Of a stretch of DNA of 64,000 bases, positions 3,108 to 48,197 are shown in pieces. The position numbers and the translations under genes were made by a program. Source of the DNA: Chloroflexota bacterium. GTDB taxonomy: Bacteria > Chloroflexota > JAJPGV01. The notes beneath the pieces are model-generated. The model did not search any database, was not told where the DNA came from, and worked only from the letters and a program-made list of their open reading frames with translations. The stretch is taken from assembly GCA_021325635.1 (NCBI GenBank), contig JAJPGV010000056.1, forward strand, positions 1 through 64,000, read 5' to 3'. Each line of letters begins with the position of its first letter. Position 1 is the first letter of the stretch.

Positions 3108-4937
3108 GTGAAATCGCTGGCTGACTTTCTCTATTCCATTGTGCCGCACCGGCAGCCGGATACGGTTCCGGCGGCTCCGGCCAGCTGTCCGAGCTGCAAG
3201 GCGGATTTTTCGAGTGGATCGTGGCCGGTCCTCCAGCGCTATCGAGTGTGCGACGTTTGCGGGCATCACCTGCACGTGCGCGCTCGCGACCGCATTCAGC
3301 AGCTGGTGGACGCGGGTACCTTCCGCGAGGTGAATCGCTCGCTGGAATCCGTCGATCCACTGTCATTCACCGATCGGCTGCCGTATAAGCAACGGCTGAG
3401 CGAGGCGCGGAAGCGGACCGGGGCTACGGAAGCAGTGGTTACCGGCAGCTGCCGCATCGGCGGCACGCAGACCGTGCTGGCCGTGCTCGATTTCGAGTTC
3501 CTCGGTGGCAGCATGGGATCGGTGGTGGGTGAGAAGGTGACCATGGCCTTTGAGCTGGCCATTCGGCGCAAGCTGCCTATCGTCACCGTGGCCACCAGCG
3601 GCGGAGCGCGGATGCAGGAAGGCATGTTGTCCCTGGTGCAGATGGCCAAGACGGCGGCGGCCGCCCGCCGCCTTCATGAAGCCCGACTACCGTTCATTTC
3701 CATCCTCGGCGATCCCACGACCGGCGGCATCTATGCCAGCTTTGCCAGCCTCGGCGACGTGGTGATCGCCGAACCCAGGGCGCTCATAGGCTTTGCCGGT
3801 CCGCGTGTGGTCGAACAGACGATGCATCAGCAAGTTCCGGACGAGGTGCACCGGGCCGAGTACCTGCAGCGGCACGGGATGATCGATCAAATCGTCGAGC
3901 GGCCGCTCTTGCGCGAGAAGCTGGTGGCGCTGCTTTCGGTGCTGCGTCCGCGCGGGCAAGCCATTCCGGCGGTCGATCCCGGCCCAGCCCCACAGCAGGC
4001 CGCGGCTCAACCTTCCCGCCCGGCCTGGGACATCGTGCAGCTGGCACGGCGGCCCGACCGCCCGACCTCTATGGTGCACCTGCGAGCCATAACCAGCGAC
4101 CTGTGCGAGCTGCATGGCGACAAGCAGGGCGCCGACGACGCAGCCGTGGTCATTGGCCTCGCCAAGCTGGGCGACCTGCCCATCGCCTTTGTCGCGCAGG
4201 AGCGGGGCTCCGGCGCGGAGGGCGATCCCACTCGCGGCGGGCGAGCGCTGCCGGAAGGCTATCGCAAGGCCCTGCGCATGATGTCGCTGGCCAACAAGTT
4301 CGGATTGCCGCTGGTAACCATGATCGACACGCCGGGCGCCTATGCCGGGGTCGAGGCCGAAGAGCGCGGGCTGGCGCGTGCACTGGCGGAATGTCTGTCC
4401 TACATGTCCGGGATCGTCGCTCCCACTGTGGCGGTGGTCGTCGGCGAAGGTGGCTCCGGCGGGGCGCTCGCCCTGGGGGTGGCGGATCGGGTGCTGATGA
4501 TGGAAAACGCCATCTATTCCGTGATCTCACCCGAAGGCGCGGCCGCCATCCTGTATCACGACGCCGGCAAGGCCGAGGAGCTGGCGGCTTCACTGCGGCT
4601 CACCGCGCACGACCTCGAGGAGCTGAGCATCGTGGACGAGATCGTCCCCGAGCCGGAAGGTGGCGCGCACCGCGATCCGGTGCATGCCTCGCATCTCCTC
4701 AAGTTGGCGGTCACGCATGCGCTGGCCGAGCTGCTGAAGGTCCCGCCCCGTAAGACCGTGCACGCCCGTTATCAGAAGTTCCGCCGAATGGGCCAGTACA
4801 ACCGCCATTTCAACGCGGCGGCCTCTCGTGAGGTGGCCCAGCTGCAGGAGTACATGCAGAACCGCATGCGTACTCTGCGCGGCATCTTCCCTTCGCCCTC
4901 GGCCGGCAAGCAGGGCGTCGCCGGCCACGATGACTGA
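3108..4937 (+). CDS. accDA: Fused acetyl-CoA carboxylase carboxyltransferase (AccD-AccA)
   Basis: A 609-residue fusion of the beta and alpha carboxyltransferase subunits, which in E. coli are separate. It transfers CO2 from carboxybiotin to acetyl-CoA to give malonyl-CoA. The beta half has a four-Cys zinc ribbon (C27, C30, C48, C51, spacing as in E. coli AccD), then SGGARMQEGMLSL and GDPTTGGIYAS. The alpha half starts near residue 308 and contains ELHGDKQGADD, TMIDTPGAYAG and GEGGSGGALALG. The start is GTG at 3108, with GGGA upstream; it preserves the full zinc ribbon. The stop overlaps the CoA-transferase start by 8 bases. Biotin carboxylase and carrier subunits are encoded at the far end of the same cluster. 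Confidence 0.93.
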   Translation: MKSLADFLYSIVPHRQPDTVPAAPASCPSCKADFSSGSWPVLQRYRVCDVCGHHLHVRARDRIQQLVDAGTFREVNRSLESVDPLSFTDRLPYKQRLSEARKRTGATEAVVTGSCRIGGTQTVLAVLDFEFLGGSMGSVVGEKVTMAFELAIRRKLPIVTVATSGGARMQEGMLSLVQMAKTAAAARRLHEARLPFISILGDPTTGGIYASFASLGDVVIAEPRALIGFAGPRVVEQTMHQQVPDEVHRAEYLQRHGMIDQIVERPLLREKLVALLSVLRPRGQAIPAVDPGPAPQQAAAQPSRPAWDIVQLARRPDRPTSMVHLRAITSDLCELHGDKQGADDAAVVIGLAKLGDLPIAFVAQERGSGAEGDPTRGGRALPEGYRKALRMMSLANKFGLPLVTMIDTPGAYAGVEAEERGLARALAECLSYMSGIVAPTVAVVVGEGGSGGALALGVADRVLMMENAIYSVISPEGAAAILYHDAGKAEELAASLRLTAHDLEELSIVDEIVPEPEGGAHRDPVHASHLLKLAVTHALAELLKVPPRKTVHARYQKFRRMGQYNRHFNAAASREVAQLQEYMQNRMRTLRGIFPSPSAGKQGVAGHDD

Positions 4938-6116: not shown

Positions 6117-7730
6117 ATGGCGTCCGCGGGTCAAGGCCCATCCGAGCGCAAGCCCGCCTTCACCAACAGCTCTGGCTTTGAGATCAAGCGCCTCTATTCA
6201 GGCGACGACGTGGCCAGCCTGGACTACCTGCGTGATCTGGGCTTTCCCGGCGAATTCCCGTACACGCGCGGGCCGCAGGCAACGATGTATCGCGGCCGTC
6301 CGTGGACCATCCGCATGTTCTCGGGCTTTGGCTCGGCGGCGGATACGAACCGCCGCTACCGTTATCTGCTCGACCAGGGCCAGACCGGTCTGAGCGTGGC
6401 CTTCCACCTGCCGACGCTGCTCGGTTATGACTCCGACCATCCGCGGGCTCGGGGCGAGGTTGGCAAGTGCGGTGTGGCCATCGACTCGTTGGCCGATATG
6501 GAGACGCTGCTGGACGGTATTCGGCTGGACGAGGTCAGCACGTCGATGACCATCAACGCCACGGCTATCGTGGCGCTGTGCCTGTACGTGGCGGTGGCCG
6601 AGAAGCAGGGCATTCCCGCCCACAAACTGCGGGGAACGATTCAGAACGACATCCTCAAGGAGTACATCGCCCAGAAGGAGTGGGCCTTCCCGGTTCGGCC
6701 TTCGCTCCGGCTGGTGGTCGACACGTTCGAGTGGTGCGCCAGCAACATGCCCGAGTGGAACACTATCAGCGTTTCGGGCTATCACATCCGGGAGGCCGGC
6801 GCGACGGCGGCCCAGGAGCTGGCTTTCACGCTCATCGATGGCCTGACCTATGTCCAAGAAGGGGTGAATCGAGGCCTGAAGGTCGACGAGTTCGTGCCGC
6901 GGCTCTCCTTCTTCTGGGACCTGCACAACGACTTCTTCGAGGAGATCGCCAAGATGCGGGCGGCGCGGAGGATCTGGGCGCGTGAAATGAAGCGGCGCTA
7001 CGATCCCCGCGATCCGCGATCGTGCACCCTGCGGGCGCACATGCAGACGGCGGGCGTGACGCTGACCGCGCAGCAGCCCTTGAACAATGTCGTCCGGGTT
7101 GCGCTGCAAGCCCTGGCTGGGGTGATCGGTGGCGGCCAGTCGATGCACACCAACTCGTACGACGAGACCTACGCGCTCCCGACAGAGCAAGCGGTGACGG
7201 TGGCCCTGCGCACGCAGCAGATCCTGCAATCGGAGACGGGACTCACGGACACGATCGATCCGTTCGCGGGCTCGTATTACGTCGAAGCGCTGACCAACCA
7301 GATGGAGGAGGCCTTCTCCCGCTATCTGGAGCGGATCGATGCCATGGGCGGGATGGTCAAGGCGATCGAGGCCGGCTTTCCACAGATGGAGATCGCCGAC
7401 GCGGCCATGCGTTATCAGGCGGCAATCGACAATCGCGAGCAGCTCATCGTGGGCGTCAATGCCTACCAGGCCGAGGGGGCGGATGCGATCCCCATCCTGG
7501 AGATCGACGACTCGCTAGAGGCCGAGCAGGTAGCTCGCCTGGAGCAGCTTCGGGCACGGAGGGCTCCAGGCTGGCGTCACGCCCTGGAGGCTGTGCGCAA
7601 GGCCGCCTTCGGCGGCGCCAACCTGGTCCCACCCATCCTCGAAGCGGTGCATGCCTACGCCACCGTCGGTGAAATCATGGACACTCTGCGCGACGTTTTC
7701 GGTGAATACCACGACCCGGGGTACTACTGA
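6117..7730 (+). CDS. B12-dependent acyl-CoA mutase, large subunit (isobutyryl-CoA mutase-like pocket)
   Basis: A 537-residue catalytic TIM-barrel subunit of the methylmalonyl-CoA mutase family, without a fused B12 domain. Family motifs include RPWTIR, GLSVAFHLPT, GTIQNDILKEY, SGYHIREAGAT (active-site His223) and HTNSYDETYALPT. The two residues that hold the methylmalonyl carboxylate in true MCM (Tyr89 and Arg207 of the Propionibacterium enzyme) align with Phe68 and Gln186 here. Those are the residues reported for isobutyryl-CoA mutase. The predicted reaction is therefore carbon-skeleton isomerisation of an uncharged acyl-CoA such as isobutyryl/n-butyryl-CoA, not succinyl-CoA formation. The separate small subunit at 8004 completes the enzyme. 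Automated annotation would call this MCM. Confidence 0.9.
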   Translation: MASAGQGPSERKPAFTNSSGFEIKRLYSGDDVASLDYLRDLGFPGEFPYTRGPQATMYRGRPWTIRMFSGFGSAADTNRRYRYLLDQGQTGLSVAFHLPTLLGYDSDHPRARGEVGKCGVAIDSLADMETLLDGIRLDEVSTSMTINATAIVALCLYVAVAEKQGIPAHKLRGTIQNDILKEYIAQKEWAFPVRPSLRLVVDTFEWCASNMPEWNTISVSGYHIREAGATAAQELAFTLIDGLTYVQEGVNRGLKVDEFVPRLSFFWDLHNDFFEEIAKMRAARRIWAREMKRRYDPRDPRSCTLRAHMQTAGVTLTAQQPLNNVVRVALQALAGVIGGGQSMHTNSYDETYALPTEQAVTVALRTQQILQSETGLTDTIDPFAGSYYVEALTNQMEEAFSRYLERIDAMGGMVKAIEAGFPQMEIADAAMRYQAAIDNREQLIVGVNAYQAEGADAIPILEIDDSLEAEQVARLEQLRARRAPGWRHALEAVRKAAFGGANLVPPILEAVHAYATVGEIMDTLRDVFGEYHDPGYY

Positions 7731-7842
7731 AGTGCCGAGTGCCGAGTGCCGAGTGCCGATGCCGAGCGCCGGGTGCCGAGTGCCGACTGCCGACTGCCGA
7801 GTGCGAGTGTCGGGGGAGTGCCGCGCCGAGCGCGGAGTGCCG
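7731..7842. repeat. GAGTGCC heptamer array (left arm)
   Basis: The array starts at the base after the mutase stop codon. It contains perfect and mutated tandem copies of GAGTGCC (also GACTGCC and GAGCGCC). A facing array of the reverse complement, GGCACTC, lies at 7915-7994, about 70 bases away. Together they separate the two mutase subunit genes. Confidence 0.85.
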
Positions 7843-7914
7843 CACGCGTGGTATTTGAGGATCGTCATGTTTGAGAAGCGAACTGTGGGGGAGTTGGGAT
7901 TGCTCGAGGTTTAT

Positions 7915-7994
7915 CACTCGGCACCAGGCACTCGGCACTCGGCACTCGGCACTCGGCACTCGGCACTTCGCCGGCACTCGGCACTCCGCCGGCA
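7915..7994. repeat. GGCACTC heptamer array (right arm, inverted)
   Basis: Tandem GGCACTC copies, inverted relative to 7731-7842, end about 10 bases before the ATG of the B12-binding subunit. The arrays could form a large stem in mRNA. The 70-base spacer between them (about 7843-7914) has no convincing gene. Confidence 0.85.
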
Positions 7995-8003
7995 CGTCCA
8001 CCG

Positions 8004-8420
8004 ATGAGGCCTATTCGTGTGGTCATTGCCAAGGCGGGAATGGACGGGCACGACAGGGGGGCCAAGGTCGTCGCCAGGGTGCTGCGCGATGCGGGCTTCG
8101 AGGTGATCTACACCGGGCTGTATCAGACACCGGAGTCGATCGTGGCCACGGCGCTGCAGGAAGACGCGGATGCTGTGGGTATCAGCGTGCTGTCGGCCGC
8201 GCACAAGCACGTCTTTTCCGAAACGGCGCGGGAGATGCGCCAGCAGGGGCTGGACGACGTCATCCTGTTCGGCGGCGGCATCATCCCGCCGGGCGATGTC
8301 GAATGGCTGGAGCAGCAGGGCGTACGGAGGCTGTTCCTGCCGGGCACGTCCGGCCCGGAGATCGTGGCCTGGCTGCAGCAAGCGGTCTCAGCGCAGCGCG
8401 CCTCCGGGTCCGGCGGCTAG
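8004..8420 (+). CDS. B12-binding small subunit of acyl-CoA mutase
   Basis: A 138-residue stand-alone cobalamin-binding domain that partners the large subunit at 6117. The base-off/His-on motif is DGHDRG, with His16 as the lower axial ligand. GISVLSAAH and FGGGIIPPGD supply the remaining parts of the nucleotide-tail pocket. The length matches IcmB/HcmB-type subunits (about 136 residues). The ATG at 8004 lies just after the inverted heptamer array, and no good Shine-Dalgarno is visible there. The stop is 2 bases before meaB. Confidence 0.93.
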   Translation: MRPIRVVIAKAGMDGHDRGAKVVARVLRDAGFEVIYTGLYQTPESIVATALQEDADAVGISVLSAAHKHVFSETAREMRQQGLDDVILFGGGIIPPGDVEWLEQQGVRRLFLPGTSGPEIVAWLQQAVSAQRASGSGG

Positions 8421-8422
8421 CC

Positions 8423-9400
8423 ATGGAAGGCCCCGAGGAGCATTCCTCGCTGGCCGCTCTGCTGGACCGAGCGCTGGCCGGCGACGGCCGCTCCGCGGCG
8501 AGACTCATGACGCTGCTGGAGAGCGACGTTGACGCGACGCCGGCCATCATGTCGCGCATCTACCCGCTGGCCGGGCATGCCCAGGTCATTGGTGTGACCG
8601 GTCCACCGGGAGCGGGGAAGAGCAGTCTTGTGGACAAGCTGGCGGCGGCCTTCCGGGCTCAGGGCAAGACGGTTGGCATCGTAGCCGTCGATCCTTCAAG
8701 TCCGTTTACCGGCGGAGCCCTCCTGGGGGACCGCATCCGCATGCAGGGGCGCTTCTCCGATCCCGGCGTATTCATTCGTAGCATGGCCAGCCGGGGCCAG
8801 CCGGGCGGCCTGGCGAAAGCCAGCCAGAACGTGGTGGCGCTGATGGCAGCCACAGGCAAGGACACGGTCATCATCGAAACCGTTGGCGTCGGCCAAGAGG
8901 AGATCGACGTCGTGCGGGTGGCGGATACCACCGTGGTCGTGCTCGTTCCGGGGCTGGGTGACGCCGTGCAGACGATGAAAGCGGGCTTGCTGGAGGCAGC
9001 CGACGTATTCGCCGTGAACAAGGCCGATTACGAGGGCGCGGAGCGGCTGGTGAAGGATCTCGAGCTGATGCTGCACCTGGGCTCTTCGGGCAGCGCCTGG
9101 TCGCCGCCAATCGTGAAGACGATCGCTACCGAGGGCAGTGGCGTAGACCAGCTGGTAGGGTCGCTGGCAGGGCATTTCGACTACCTGCAGGGCAGCGGGG
9201 AATACCTCAAACGGCGCCGCCGTGCAGCTGTGGCCGAGATCGATGGCGTGCTGCGCGGCCAGCTGATGAGCGCGATTGCGCGACGCGTTCCTGCCTTCGA
9301 CGTCTATGCCTCCCAGGTTGCCGAACGGAAATGCGACCCATACACCGCGGCGGACCGCATCCTCCGCGAGAGTGGTCTTACGGCAGAGGGTCTTGGGTGA
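8423..9400 (+). CDS. meaB: MeaB/ArgK-type GTPase, B12 mutase chaperone
   Basis: A 325-residue G3E-family GTPase that gates delivery of adenosylcobalamin to the mutase and protects it from inactivation. It has Walker A GVTGPPGAGKSSL near residue 54, the switch region AVDPSSPFTGGALLGDR, ETVGVGQEEIDVV, and the NKAD guanine-specificity motif. The C-terminal dimerisation arm follows. The start ATG at 8423 lies 2 bases after the small-subunit stop; an upstream extension in the same frame would run back through the small-subunit gene and the repeat array, so it was rejected. Its position matches other mutase operons. Confidence 0.94.
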   Translation: MEGPEEHSSLAALLDRALAGDGRSAARLMTLLESDVDATPAIMSRIYPLAGHAQVIGVTGPPGAGKSSLVDKLAAAFRAQGKTVGIVAVDPSSPFTGGALLGDRIRMQGRFSDPGVFIRSMASRGQPGGLAKASQNVVALMAATGKDTVIIETVGVGQEEIDVVRVADTTVVVLVPGLGDAVQTMKAGLLEAADVFAVNKADYEGAERLVKDLELMLHLGSSGSAWSPPIVKTIATEGSGVDQLVGSLAGHFDYLQGSGEYLKRRRRAAVAEIDGVLRGQLMSAIARRVPAFDVYASQVAERKCDPYTAADRILRESGLTAEGLG

Positions 9401-9413
9401 AGGGCCGCTCGAA

Positions 9414-9875
9414 ATGGTGCTGTGCGATGCTTGCCTCGTGACCGCAGACCTTGAAGTTCGGGAGATCACGCGTGTCGCTGCGCAGGATTTCCTGGAGGAG
9501 GAGTGGCGGCTGGCCAACCAGGCGCTCTTCGGCAAGCCGTTCTTGTGGACCTACCAGGGTGAGTTTCACCTTGCAGCCTTCCAGAGCGATGACCAGCTGC
9601 TGGGCGTGGCCCGGTTCAACATCGCCGAAGGCGTCGGCAAGCTGCTGGAGCTGGTCGTCAGGGCGGACCGCCGCGGCGAAGGCATCGGTGGGCGCTTGTT
9701 GAGCAGCTTCGAGCGCAGCTGCAAAGAGCGAGGCTGCCACAAGCTGTACCTCGACGTGGCCTCCGTCAACGTCGGTGCCAAGCGCTTCTATCAGCAGCAC
9801 GGCTGGGAATTCGAGGGGGTAATGCGGCGTCACTGGCGAAAGGTGGATTTCGAGAACTGGTGCAAATGGCTCTGA
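9414..9875 (+). CDS. GNAT-family N-acetyltransferase
   Basis: A protein of about 153 residues with the GNAT fold. The acetyl-CoA pyrophosphate loop is [11 protein letters not shown], preceded by the beta-4 strand [10 protein letters not shown]. The C-terminal part, [20 protein letters not shown], is typical of motif B. The substrate is unknown. The start is uncertain: ATG at 9414 was chosen because it follows the meaB stop by 13 bases, but GTG at 9438 is also possible. The end overlaps the next gene by 10 bases. An acetyltransferase inside an acyl-CoA operon could regulate these enzymes by lysine acetylation, but this is speculation from context. Confidence 0.85.
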
Positions 9876-11497
9876 AGGAGCCTCGGGCCGGCCATCGGCC
9901 GCCCGCCGCCAGACCGCGCGAGGACGGCCATGAAGAGCCGGCCGCCCCCGAAACGGAGCCGCGTCTTCCTGTGCGGGAGGATCTCGAGCGGCTGCGGGCG
10001 CGAGCGCTGCTGGGCGGTGGCCAGCGCCGTATCGACGATCAGCACGCCAAGGGCAAGCTCACGGCCCGCGAGCGCATCGAGCTGCTGCTCGACACCGGCA
10101 GCTTCCAGGAAACGGGGATGTTCGTCACCAGTCGCGGGCTGAAGCCGGATGAGCCCATTCTGGGCGACGGCGTGGTGACTGGCTACGGCACCGTTCATGG
10201 GCGGCTGGTGTACGTGTTCTCGCAGGACTTTACGGTGTTCGGCGGTTCGCTGGGCGAAGCCCACGCCGAGAAGATCTGCCGTCTGATGGACCTGGCCATG
10301 AGGAACGGCGCGCCGATCGTGGGCCTCAACGATTCGGGCGGGGCGCGCATCCAGGAAGGTGTGCTGAGCCTGGCCGGCTACGCTGACATCTTCTATCGCA
10401 ATACCCAGGCATCGGGTGTCATCCCTCAGATTTCGGCCATCCTGGGCCCCTGCGCCGGCGGCGCCGTGTACTCACCGGCCATCACCGACTTCATCTTCAT
10501 GGTGCGTGGCACCAGCCATATGTTCGTCACCGGGCCAAACGTGGTGAAGCAGGTCACTCGTGAAGACGTCTCGTTCGAGGACCTGGGCGGAGCGGAAACG
10601 CATGCCGCCATCAGCGGGGTGGCCCACTTTGCCGTGGACAGCGAGCAGGCATGCTTGGAGCTGGTGCGCGAGCTTTTGAGCTTCCTGCCCCAGAACAACC
10701 TCGACGATCCGCCTCGGGGACCGCTCGACGATGCCGTAGATCGGATGGACGAGGCGCTGGATGTCATCGTGCCGGACAGCCCGAACAAGCCCTACGACAT
10801 GCTGGAGGTCATCGGACGAGTGGTTGACCATGGCCACTTCGTGGAGGTCCACCAGTCGTATGCGCGTAACCTCATCGTTGGCTTCGCGCGACTCAACGGC
10901 CGCTCCGTTGGGATCGTGGCTCAGCAGCCCGCGGCGCTGGCCGGGACGCTCGACATCAACTCATCCGACAAGGGCGCCCGCTTCGTGCGCTTCTGCGACG
11001 CGTTCAACCTGCCGCTGGTTACGTTCGTGGACGTGCCCGGCTTCCTGCCCGGCAAGGACCAGGAGCACGGTGGCATCATCCGCCACGGCGCCAAGCTCCT
11101 GTTCGCCTACTGCGAGGCAACCGTTCCCAAGATCGCGGTCATTACCCGCAAGGCCTACGGAGGGGCGTACGACGTCATGTCGAGCAAGCACGTGGGGGCC
11201 GACGTCAACTTGGCCTGGCCGTCGGCGGAGATCGCCGTGATGGGCCCCGAGGGCGCGGTGGAGATTGTGAACCGACGCGACCTGGCGGCGGCGGGCGATC
11301 CGGCGGCGGAAAAGGCTCGGCTGGTGGCGGAATACCGCGCGCGTTACGCCAATCCGCTGCTCGCGGCGAGCCGCGGGTTCCTAGACGACATCATCGAGCC
11401 TCGTGAGACTCGACCCAAGCTCATCGCCGCGCTGGAGATGCTGCAGAACAAGCGTCAATCCCTGCCGGCGAAGAAGCACGGCAACATTCCCCTCTAA
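9866..11497 (+). CDS. pccB: Acyl-CoA carboxylase carboxyltransferase (propionyl-CoA type)
   Basis: A carboxyltransferase of about 543 residues that moves CO2 from biotin to an acyl-CoA. Motifs are [49 protein letters not shown] and [17 protein letters not shown]. In the acyl-pocket motif [11 protein letters not shown] the Asp (residue 436) is the residue that favours propionyl-CoA in Streptomyces PccB (D422), where acetyl-type enzymes have Ile. The N-terminus carries a charged 30-residue extension. ATG at 9866 was preferred over a GTG two codons earlier. The product would be methylmalonyl-CoA. It overlaps the GNAT gene and is followed 2 bases later by the biotin carboxylase. Confidence 0.92.
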
Positions 11498-11499
11498 CC

Positions 11500-13014
11500 A
11501 TGCAAGCCGGCAGTCCGAGGTCGTTCCGCAAGATCCTGGTCGCGAACCGCGGCGAGATCGCGGTTCGGGTGATTCGCACCTGCCGCGAAATGGGCATACC
11601 CACCGTGGCCGTGTACTCTGACGTCGATCGAGCCGCGCTCCACGTGCGACTGGCCGACGAGGCGTATTCCATCGGCCCTGCGCCTGCCGATCAGAGCTAC
11701 CTGCGCGGCGAGGCGATCCTGGAAGTTGCCGAGCGGAGCGGCGCCGAGGCGCTTCATCCTGGATACGGCTTCCTGTCGGAGAACGCGGGGTTCGCGCGAG
11801 CCTGTCGTGATGCAGGACTGGCGTTCATCGGACCGGCCCCCGAGGCCATGGCCCTCCTGGGCGACAAGCTCGAGGCCAAGCGCGCGGTGGCCCGCCGCGG
11901 GGTGCCCCTGGTTCCAGGCACCGACGAGCCGGTGGAAGACGAAGCCCAGCTGCGCAAGGACGCGGCCAGGATCGGCTACCCGCTGCTGATCAAGGCGGCA
12001 GCAGGCGGTGGCGGCAAGGGGATTCACGCAGTGGAGCGGCCGGAAGACCTCGAAGCCGCACTGCGTCTGGCGCAGGGAGAAGCGCAGGCGGCATTTGGTG
12101 ACAGGCGCGTGTTTCTCGAGCGGCTGCTGCACCATCCCCGGCACGTCGAGGTCCAGCTGCTGGCGGACCAGCATGGCAACTACGTCCACCTGGGTGAGCG
12201 CGAATGCTCGGTGCAGCGGCGGCATCAGAAGTTGATCGAGGAGTCGCCGTCGCCCGTCGTGACCGCTGACTTGCGGCAGCGCATGGGGGAAGCGGCCATC
12301 CTTGCGGCGCGTGAAGCGGGCTACACCAATGCCGGCACAGTGGAGTTTCTGCTCGACGAAGCCGGCCAGTTCTATTTCCTGGAGGTGAATACGCGGCTGC
12401 AGGTGGAGCACCCGGTGACCGAGTGGGTGACCGGCCGCGACCTGGTACGCGATCAAATCCGCATCGCGGCGGGAGAGGAGCTGGGCTTCGGCCAGGCCGA
12501 CGTGACCTGGCGTGGAGCGGCAATCGAGTGCCGCATCACAGCCGAGGATCCCGACCTGAACTTCCTCCCGTTCACGGGCAGGGTGCAGGAGCTTGTTGAG
12601 CCATCGGGGCCGGGAGTGCGCTTCGATCACATGCTGTACCCCGGAGCCGAGGTGACGCGTTACTACGACTCGCTGCTCGGCAAGCTCGTCGTCTGGGCAG
12701 GCGATCGCGCGGCCGTGCTGCGGCGAATGGAACGGGCCCTCGGCGAGCTGCATGTGATTGGTCTCAAGACCACTATCCCGTTCCATGCCTGGGCGATGTC
12801 GCATCCGGCTTTCCGGGCTGGTGAGCTCCACACGAGCTTCATCGACGAGAACTGGCAGCCGGGTGCCGGCTCGGCCGATCTTTCGGACGTCGCGGCCATA
12901 GCCGCTGCGGTGCTCGAATTCCACCGCGGCGCCCGGCCGAGCCGGAATGGGACGCAAGAAGATCCGCCAAGTCGGTGGAAGCTTGCCGCCCGCGCCCGGA
13001 TCCATTCCTCATGA
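11500..13014 (+). CDS. accC: Biotin carboxylase subunit
   Basis: A 504-residue ATP-grasp enzyme that carboxylates biotin with bicarbonate and ATP. The pre-ATP-grasp domain opens ILVANRGEIAVRVIRTC. The ATP-grasp core has KAAAGGGGKGIHAV near residue 164 and the active-site stretch NTRLQVEHPVTE near 296. The C-terminal biotin carboxylase domain ends around 440, followed by a tail of about 60 residues. Unlike actinobacterial AccA/PccA, the carrier domain is not fused but encoded by the next gene through an ATGA overlap at 13011. One biotin carboxylase may therefore serve both the AccDA fusion and the PccB-type subunit. Confidence 0.94.
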   Translation: MQAGSPRSFRKILVANRGEIAVRVIRTCREMGIPTVAVYSDVDRAALHVRLADEAYSIGPAPADQSYLRGEAILEVAERSGAEALHPGYGFLSENAGFARACRDAGLAFIGPAPEAMALLGDKLEAKRAVARRGVPLVPGTDEPVEDEAQLRKDAARIGYPLLIKAAAGGGGKGIHAVERPEDLEAALRLAQGEAQAAFGDRRVFLERLLHHPRHVEVQLLADQHGNYVHLGERECSVQRRHQKLIEESPSPVVTADLRQRMGEAAILAAREAGYTNAGTVEFLLDEAGQFYFLEVNTRLQVEHPVTEWVTGRDLVRDQIRIAAGEELGFGQADVTWRGAAIECRITAEDPDLNFLPFTGRVQELVEPSGPGVRFDHMLYPGAEVTRYYDSLLGKLVVWAGDRAAVLRRMERALGELHVIGLKTTIPFHAWAMSHPAFRAGELHTSFIDENWQPGAGSADLSDVAAIAAAVLEFHRGARPSRNGTQEDPPSRWKLAARARIHSS

Positions 13015-13508
13015 GATACCTGGCGACGATCGCAGACCGGCAATTCGTGGTGGAGGTTCAGGCTGGCGCGCGGCCGGGCAGCTATGCCGTCGTCATGAAC
13101 GGATCCAGCCAGATGGTCGATATCGAGCCGGCCTCTGGTGACTGGCTGTATTCGATGCTCATCGACGGGCGCTCGTTCACCGTCGCCGCTACGCCTGACG
13201 GCGTGCAGCTCGATGGCAAGGACTTCGCCGCTCGGGTGCAGCGCAGCTTGGGGCCGGCCTTGCAGGCCCCCGGCGTATCTTCCGAACCGGCGCGGCTGCA
13301 GGCGCCGATTCCCGGACTCGTCGTGGCCATCCATGTGACCGCTGGCCAGGAGGTCCTCGAAGGCGAACCGCTGCTTGTCGTGGAAGCCATGAAGATGCAG
13401 ATGGATCTGAAGAGCCCTCGTTCGGGCAAAGTGACGCAAATCGCCGTTGCCGCCGGCCAGGAAGTCGCCCACGGCCAGCTCCTCGTCGTCGTGGACGAGT
13501 CGAAGTAA
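13011..13508 (+). CDS. Biotin carboxyl carrier protein
   Basis: A 165-residue biotinyl carrier. The C-terminal lipoyl/biotinyl domain carries EAMKMQM, with Lys128 as the biotinylation site, followed by the usual GQEVAHGQLL hairpin. The N-terminal half (MRYLATIADRQFVVEV) resembles the linker domain that follows biotin carboxylase in fused alpha subunits rather than classical AccB. This suggests fission of an ancestral alpha chain. The start ATG overlaps the accC stop by 4 bases, and it is the last gene of the cluster. Confidence 0.92.
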   Translation: MRYLATIADRQFVVEVQAGARPGSYAVVMNGSSQMVDIEPASGDWLYSMLIDGRSFTVAATPDGVQLDGKDFAARVQRSLGPALQAPGVSSEPARLQAPIPGLVVAIHVTAGQEVLEGEPLLVVEAMKMQMDLKSPRSGKVTQIAVAAGQEVAHGQLLVVVDESK

Positions 13509-48083: not shown

Positions 48084-48139
48084 GAGTGCCGAGTGCCGAG
48101 TGCCGAGTGCCGAGTGCCGAGTGCCGAGTGCCGAGTGCC
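48084..48139. repeat. Eight perfect GAGTGCC heptamers
   Basis: Exactly eight tandem copies of GAGTGCC, then a degenerate GC-rich stretch to about 48180. It lies between the start of the ATP synthase operon and the end of the ABC permease gene. The heptamer is the same as at 7731-7842. No facing inverted arm is present here. Confidence 0.9.
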
Positions 48140-48197
48140 GAGGCGCGCGGAGCGCGCAGGGGCCAGGGGCTGGGGGACGGGGCCGAGAGGCGCGGGT

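Follow-up and report, generated by a model that had tools for sequence, protein, structure and literature searches.

Gene organization of the mutase locus

The window, meaning the whole 64,000-nt stretch that was analysed, carries an operon of co-directional genes in the order AccDA, CaiB-type CoA-transferase, acyl-CoA mutase, B12 subunit, MeaB, GNAT-like open reading frame (ORF), carboxyltransferase of the propionyl-CoA carboxylase (PCC) type, biotin carboxylase, and biotin carboxyl carrier protein (BCCP). The features are as follows.

3108..4937, + strand: fused AccD-AccA acetyl-CoA carboxylase carboxyltransferase, 609 aa
4930..6108, + strand: CaiB-type (class III) CoA-transferase, 8 nt upstream of the mutase gene
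6117..7730, + strand: large catalytic subunit of an AdoCbl-dependent acyl-CoA mutase, Phe/Gln (isobutyryl-CoA mutase) type
7731..8003, + strand: gap between the subunit genes, with opposed heptamer arrays; one long hairpin possible
8004..8420, + strand: B12-binding small subunit, 138 aa, DGHDRG motif; the genome encodes just one other
8417..9400, + strand: MeaB-type GTPase chaperone for AdoCbl loading (TIGR00750, 328 bits, cut-off 240.75)
9860..11497, + strand: acyl-CoA carboxylase carboxyltransferase, PCC type
11500..13014, + strand: biotin carboxylase subunit
12975..13508, + strand: BCCP

Short gaps or overlaps join these genes (MeaB overlaps the small-subunit gene by 4 nt), save for 273 nt between the genes for the large and small subunits. 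The best model for the CoA-transferase is succinate--glutarate CoA-transferase, at 371 bits and below the cut-off of 750. No epimerase gene was found in the operon. The operon could be taken for one of propionate metabolism, but the large subunit suited to a methylmalonyl-CoA mutase (MCM) is encoded on another contig of the genome, C36. The operon's carboxylase is only distantly similar to the pair on contig C50 (AccC plus a carboxyltransferase).

Within the 273-nt gap, a GAGTGCC array (7731-7809) faces an array of the reverse complement (7915-7995), and the hairpin that they could form has a minimum free energy of -175 kcal/mol over 273 nt. The heptamer recurs in eight perfect copies at 48084-48142 and is absent from 66 kb of the genome's other loci. 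The window has no Rfam match; G+C-rich repeats are present at 1-282 and 805-916.

Substrate-binding residues of the mutase

The mutase ORF encodes 537 aa and is free of internal stops. The original prediction had aligned the Tyr89 and Arg207 of MCM with Phe68 and Gln186 of this protein, and both the residues and their codons proved correct in a MAFFT alignment with Propionibacterium MutB as the reference and in pairwise alignments with PDB chains, which give the same register. At Tyr89, the register reads RQYAG in 1req, RQFAG in the Y89F mutant (5req), and RMFSG in the window. The MutB sequence that sets the numbering matches the PDB chain in the stretches compared. The diagnostic codons are these.

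6318..6320, + strand: Phe68, at the place of MCM Tyr89 (6117 + 67 x 3 = 6318)
6399..6401, + strand: Ala95, at the place of an Asp (Asp117) in 2-hydroxyisobutyryl-CoA mutase (HCM) and of an Ala in MCM and isobutyryl-CoA mutase (ICM)
6672..6674, + strand: Gln186, at the place of MCM Arg207 (6117 + 185 x 3 = 6672)

At MutB positions 89/116/207, the window enzyme thus has Phe/Ala/Gln, compared with Tyr/Ala/Arg in MCM, Ile/Asp/Gln in HCM (4r3u), and Leu/Leu/Asn in Xaut_5043. That Phe/Gln is the ICM pair, as had been claimed, is borne out by crystallised IcmF (4xc6), which has PTRMFAG and KEDQGQN at the two sites, corresponding to Phe598 and Gln742 when the numbering is corrected for a 20-residue tag. 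The IcmA sequence also has a Phe/Ala/Gln pocket; it serves only as a secondary reference, and the PDB IcmF carries the pocket argument. Gln at position 207 had also been ascribed to HCM. This is true of 4r3u, but Gln alone is no sign of an HCM, and the HCM Asp117 is Ala here. In PMC7238569, the same two sites are used, after Jost et al. 2015, to tell MCM from ICM.

The window enzyme is the same as MCM at MutB His244, Tyr243, Gln197, Gln330, Arg82, and Arg87 and is also MCM-like at Ser114, Ser162, Ser164, and Thr195; of the positions examined for contact with substrate or CoA, two differ, 75 (Gln) and 139 (Cys). It departs slightly from most of its relatives at Met67 and His97 (in AFHLPT). Phe68 and Gln186 do not vary among 22 aligned family members, and the pair occurs in 79 of the 80 nearest relatives, which span many phyla (genome contigs searched; the exception, L071, has Tyr/Arg), so the pair is not a chance feature of this gene. 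Members of the family come from Acidobacteriota, Chloroflexota, Gemmatimonadota, Myxococcota, Nitrospirota, and others.

The window mutase does not pass the NCBIfam MCM model NF006944 (658 bits; cut-off, 876), which is weak evidence because that model includes a fused B12 domain. The predicted structure has a mean pLDDT of 75, with values below 50 at residues 45 to 68, Phe68 included, and a fold search with it confirms the mutase family only.

Phylogenetic placement

Trees were built without the trait columns 89/116/207. A tree of 92 rows requires a single change between Tyr/Arg and Phe/Gln. In a tree of 38 rows, the split of Tyr/Arg from Phe/Gln plus HCM has UFBoot 100 and SH-aLRT 97, and the window enzyme falls on the Phe/Gln side, outside an HCM clade (100/100) that includes Methylibium, Xanthobacter, and Shinella sequences. 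The IcmA sequence and the window enzyme are both on the Phe/Gln side (100/97), with weak inner nodes; a plasmid search for the Streptomyces IcmA gave no match above 60% identity. Forcing the window enzyme to group with MCMs, with HCMs, or with the Tyr/Arg mutase of its own genome costs 12 to 28 log units, and AU tests reject none of these placements (P = 0.18 to 0.23, 0.17, and 0.08, respectively). The phylogenetic check proposed with the original prediction therefore favors the expected side and leaves the forced placements standing; placement among the Phe/Gln mutases is supported by these sequence comparisons, short of proof.

Other mutases in the same genome

The 4.64-Mb genome encodes three mutase large subunits: that of the window (Phe/Gln) and those on contigs C36 and C50 (both Tyr/Arg). 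The C36 gene is followed directly by the only methylmalonyl-CoA epimerase gene in the genome that scores over the cut-off. With a canonical MCM on C36, the methylmalonyl-CoA step does not depend on the window enzyme. The MMSDH of the classical valine route is below the cut-off in this genome (354 versus 448.5 bits); its absence is not general, since 19 of 42 relatives have it.

The C50 mutase (L005 9523-11217, - strand) keeps Tyr89 and Arg207 and carries the changes R82Q, R87G, S162R, S164R, T195L, S285W, and H328F (MutB numbering) at residues that are conserved in nearly all other mutases examined. Its gene adjoins those for a small subunit, a thiolase, a CaiB CoA-transferase, and two SDRs. 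Its substrate is perhaps an unusual dicarboxylic one of the alkyl- or arylsuccinyl type. Another divergent mutase, from a member of the Dehalococcoidia (L172; G042:C28:2242-3789), has a Phe/Ser/Cys pocket unlike that of every mutase type compared, Asn at His244, and its own small subunit alongside.

Gene neighborhoods and co-occurrence in relatives

A Tyr/Arg mutase is also present in 32 of the 42 genomes that have the Phe/Gln mutase. An epimerase was found in 29 of those 32, versus 4 of the 10 without a Tyr/Arg mutase (Fisher P = 0.0025), absences being limited as evidence by genes missing from MAGs. The genomes with only the Phe/Gln mutase and no epimerase are those of two Nitrospira, a Scalindua, a Thermogemmatispora, a member of the Thermoplasmatota, and a Heimdall genome. 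Nitrospira UBC2 has a complete chromosome with a Phe/Gln mutase, no epimerase, and no Tyr/Arg mutase. An awkward case is an Ardenticatenales MAG in which the Phe/Gln gene adjoins an epimerase and no Tyr/Arg mutase is present.

Neighbors were counted within 5 kb as genes for enoyl-CoA hydratase, acyl-CoA dehydrogenase, 3-hydroxybutyryl-CoA dehydrogenase, thiolase, and 2-oxoacid dehydrogenase. Such beta-oxidation or 2-oxoacid dehydrogenase genes were present at 28 of 68 Phe/Gln loci versus none of 30 Tyr/Arg loci (P = 5e-6), with epimerase genes at 4 of 68 and 8 of 30, respectively; P values for neighborhoods are indicative, as related loci are non-independent. Two loci from Nitrospira, L028 and L037, are arranged as E1a-E1b-E2-thiolase-HBD-[Phe/Gln mutase]-B12 subunit-carboxyltransferase-ECH-HMG-CoA-lyase-MeaB, an order that resembles an operon for branched-chain amino acids. 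Representative neighbors were identified by NCBIfam, where E1 and E2 score as generic 2-oxoacid dehydrogenases; we infer their branched-chain specificity.

Proposed function and alternative substrates

Taken together, the sequence evidence suggests, with a probability of about 0.82, that the window gene encodes an isobutyryl-CoA/butyryl-CoA mutase and does not make succinyl-CoA. The pocket, the trees, the separate Tyr/Arg mutase beside an epimerase, and the neighborhoods in relatives all favor this reading, which had been put forward in the original prediction. One argument given there fails: the separate 138-aa B12 subunit is present as in two-subunit ICM but is not specific to it, since the Tyr/Arg mutase of the same genome is unfused too and most Tyr/Arg mutases here likewise lack a fused B12 domain.

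The substrate, direction, pathway, and partner subunit proposed here are inferred. The partner would be a separate B12 subunit, probably that at 8004-8420, loaded with AdoCbl by the MeaB GTPase (8417-9400). By analogy with the family, substrate binding would trigger homolysis of the Co-C bond of AdoCbl on the small subunit; the adenosyl radical would then abstract a methyl hydrogen, the CoA-thioester group would undergo 1,2-migration, and the hydrogen would be returned. Phe68 and Gln186 would form a neutral pocket that offers no positive charge or hydroxyl for the carboxylate of methylmalonyl- or succinyl-CoA and can accommodate a neutral C4 chain. The enzyme probably serves mainly to convert valine-derived isobutyryl-CoA to n-butyryl-CoA for ordinary beta-oxidation; in the reverse direction, it may provide a branched starter in the form of isobutyryl-CoA. 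For Streptomyces albus, strong induction of ICM by valine has been described, together with a proposed route from valine via isobutyryl-CoA to butyryl-CoA (PMC8176718). The window operon gives no independent pointer to butyryl-CoA, because the neighbors of the mutase are a PCC-type carboxylase and a CoA-transferase rather than beta-oxidation genes.

It is unlikely, though the best of the alternatives, that this neutral-pocket mutase acts mainly on another branched acyl-CoA (2-methylbutyryl-, isovaleryl-, or pivalyl-CoA), with ICM activity being secondary. IcmF, with the same Phe/Gln pair, converts pivalyl-CoA and isovaleryl-CoA (PMC10481361), and Met67 and His97 set the window enzyme apart from most relatives. 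The neighbors in relatives are C4 beta-oxidation genes, which argues against such a substrate, as does the distance of the window enzyme in the tree from the native pivalyl-CoA mutase, Xaut_5043 of Xanthobacter, which has Leu/Leu/Asn. A true MCM working with the adjoining PCC in a propionate operon is much less probable still. The operon does hold a PCC-type carboxylase, MeaB, and a B12 subunit; MutB Y89F has been crystallised with bound substrate (5req), so that binding may survive the Tyr-to-Phe change by itself; and the AU tests are compatible with placement among MCMs. However, Arg207 is replaced by a Gln that is invariant in the 22 aligned members, the operon has no epimerase, that of the genome being beside the Tyr/Arg mutase on C36, and the complete Nitrospira UBC2 genome has the Phe/Gln enzyme with neither epimerase nor Tyr/Arg mutase.

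An HCM is the least probable of all, with very little chance of being correct: the best PDB match by both sequence and fold is 4r3u, and Gln186 is common to both enzymes, but the HCM residues Ile90 and Asp117 correspond to Phe68 and Ala95 here, the HCM clade excludes the window enzyme, and there are no neighboring genes for an acyl-CoA synthetase or TPP enzyme, unlike at the relative's locus L103. With Ala95 in place of Asp117, HCM identity was rejected. The missing carboxylate-binding Arg argues against an ethylmalonyl-CoA mutase.

A probable shared B12 subunit

Against three large subunits, the genome encodes two B12 small subunits (window 8004-8420; C50, L005 9089-9490). The C36 mutase, with neither a fused B12 domain nor an adjacent small subunit, would therefore have to borrow one. 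Among the 32 genomes with both mutase types, 4 (G008, G025, G029, and G035) have a Tyr/Arg mutase with a fused B12 domain plus one separate subunit. The other 28 (27 without G022, whose Tyr/Arg gene is a fragment) have unfused large subunits and one TIGR00640 subunit per pair: exactly one is present in 24 of those genomes (25 with G022), and in 3 an extra one accompanies a third large subunit or lies on a fragment. The single subunit is within 2 kb of the Phe/Gln gene in 15 of 28 genomes and beside the Tyr/Arg gene in none of the 28; at least 8 genomes with both types have it in a cassette of its own with MeaB. Anaeromyxobacter, a cultivated relative, has both mutase types and one separate small subunit. 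A small-subunit tree did not separate ICM-type from MCM-type subunits; in it, the window subunit is on a long branch (2.29) and the C50 copy is more typical.

Since each of the 27 relatives with both mutases unfused and intact has just one B12 subunit available to the two, the simplest explanation of these gene inventories is that MCM and ICM probably share a single B12 subunit in many bacteria. The main alternative is that a divergent small subunit was overlooked. If there is sharing, the large subunits would compete for one cobalamin carrier, which would tie propionate and odd-chain metabolism as well as valine metabolism to the B12 supply. The limited literature searched contained no statement of subunit sharing between MCM and ICM; if confirmed, one subunit serving two enzymes would clearly exemplify the sharing of a radical-cofactor subunit.

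Consequences for annotation and comparison with known systems

The family is automatically annotated as MCM, and metabolic models may therefore assign a propionate/succinyl-CoA route that the gene would not provide; in Nitrospira, the label would give such a route with no epimerase. The mislabeling may also hide a valine/isobutyrate-to-butyryl-CoA route. The two-residue test, with a check for a second, Tyr/Arg mutase, would correct the annotation. For IcmF, the labeling of an ICM as MCM has been noted before (PMC7764203, citing Cracan 2010), and the window mutase would be a new example of such misannotation.

MCM, as in MutB, human MUT, and the C36 enzyme, resembles the window enzyme in fold, catalytic residues, and type of B12 subunit or domain; it differs in its Tyr89/Arg207 pair and its side of the tree, and the window gene has no epimerase alongside. 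HcmA (4r3u) is the closest PDB chain, at about 48% identity, and shares a separate small subunit and Gln at 207, whereas its Ile90 (Ile/Val90) and Asp117 are both missing here. IcmF (4xc6) has Phe and Gln at the same places but combines the B12 domain, GTPase, and mutase in one chain, in contrast to the three genes of the window, and its model gives the window mutase 326 bits (cut-off, 1500). Streptomyces IcmA/IcmB shares with the window system separate large and small subunits and, in IcmA, the Phe/Ala/Gln pocket and the side of the tree. IcmA is nevertheless distant (a tree path of more than 1.5 changes per column), and, unlike IcmA/IcmB, the window mutase is encoded alongside a propionyl-CoA carboxylase and a CoA-transferase in one operon.
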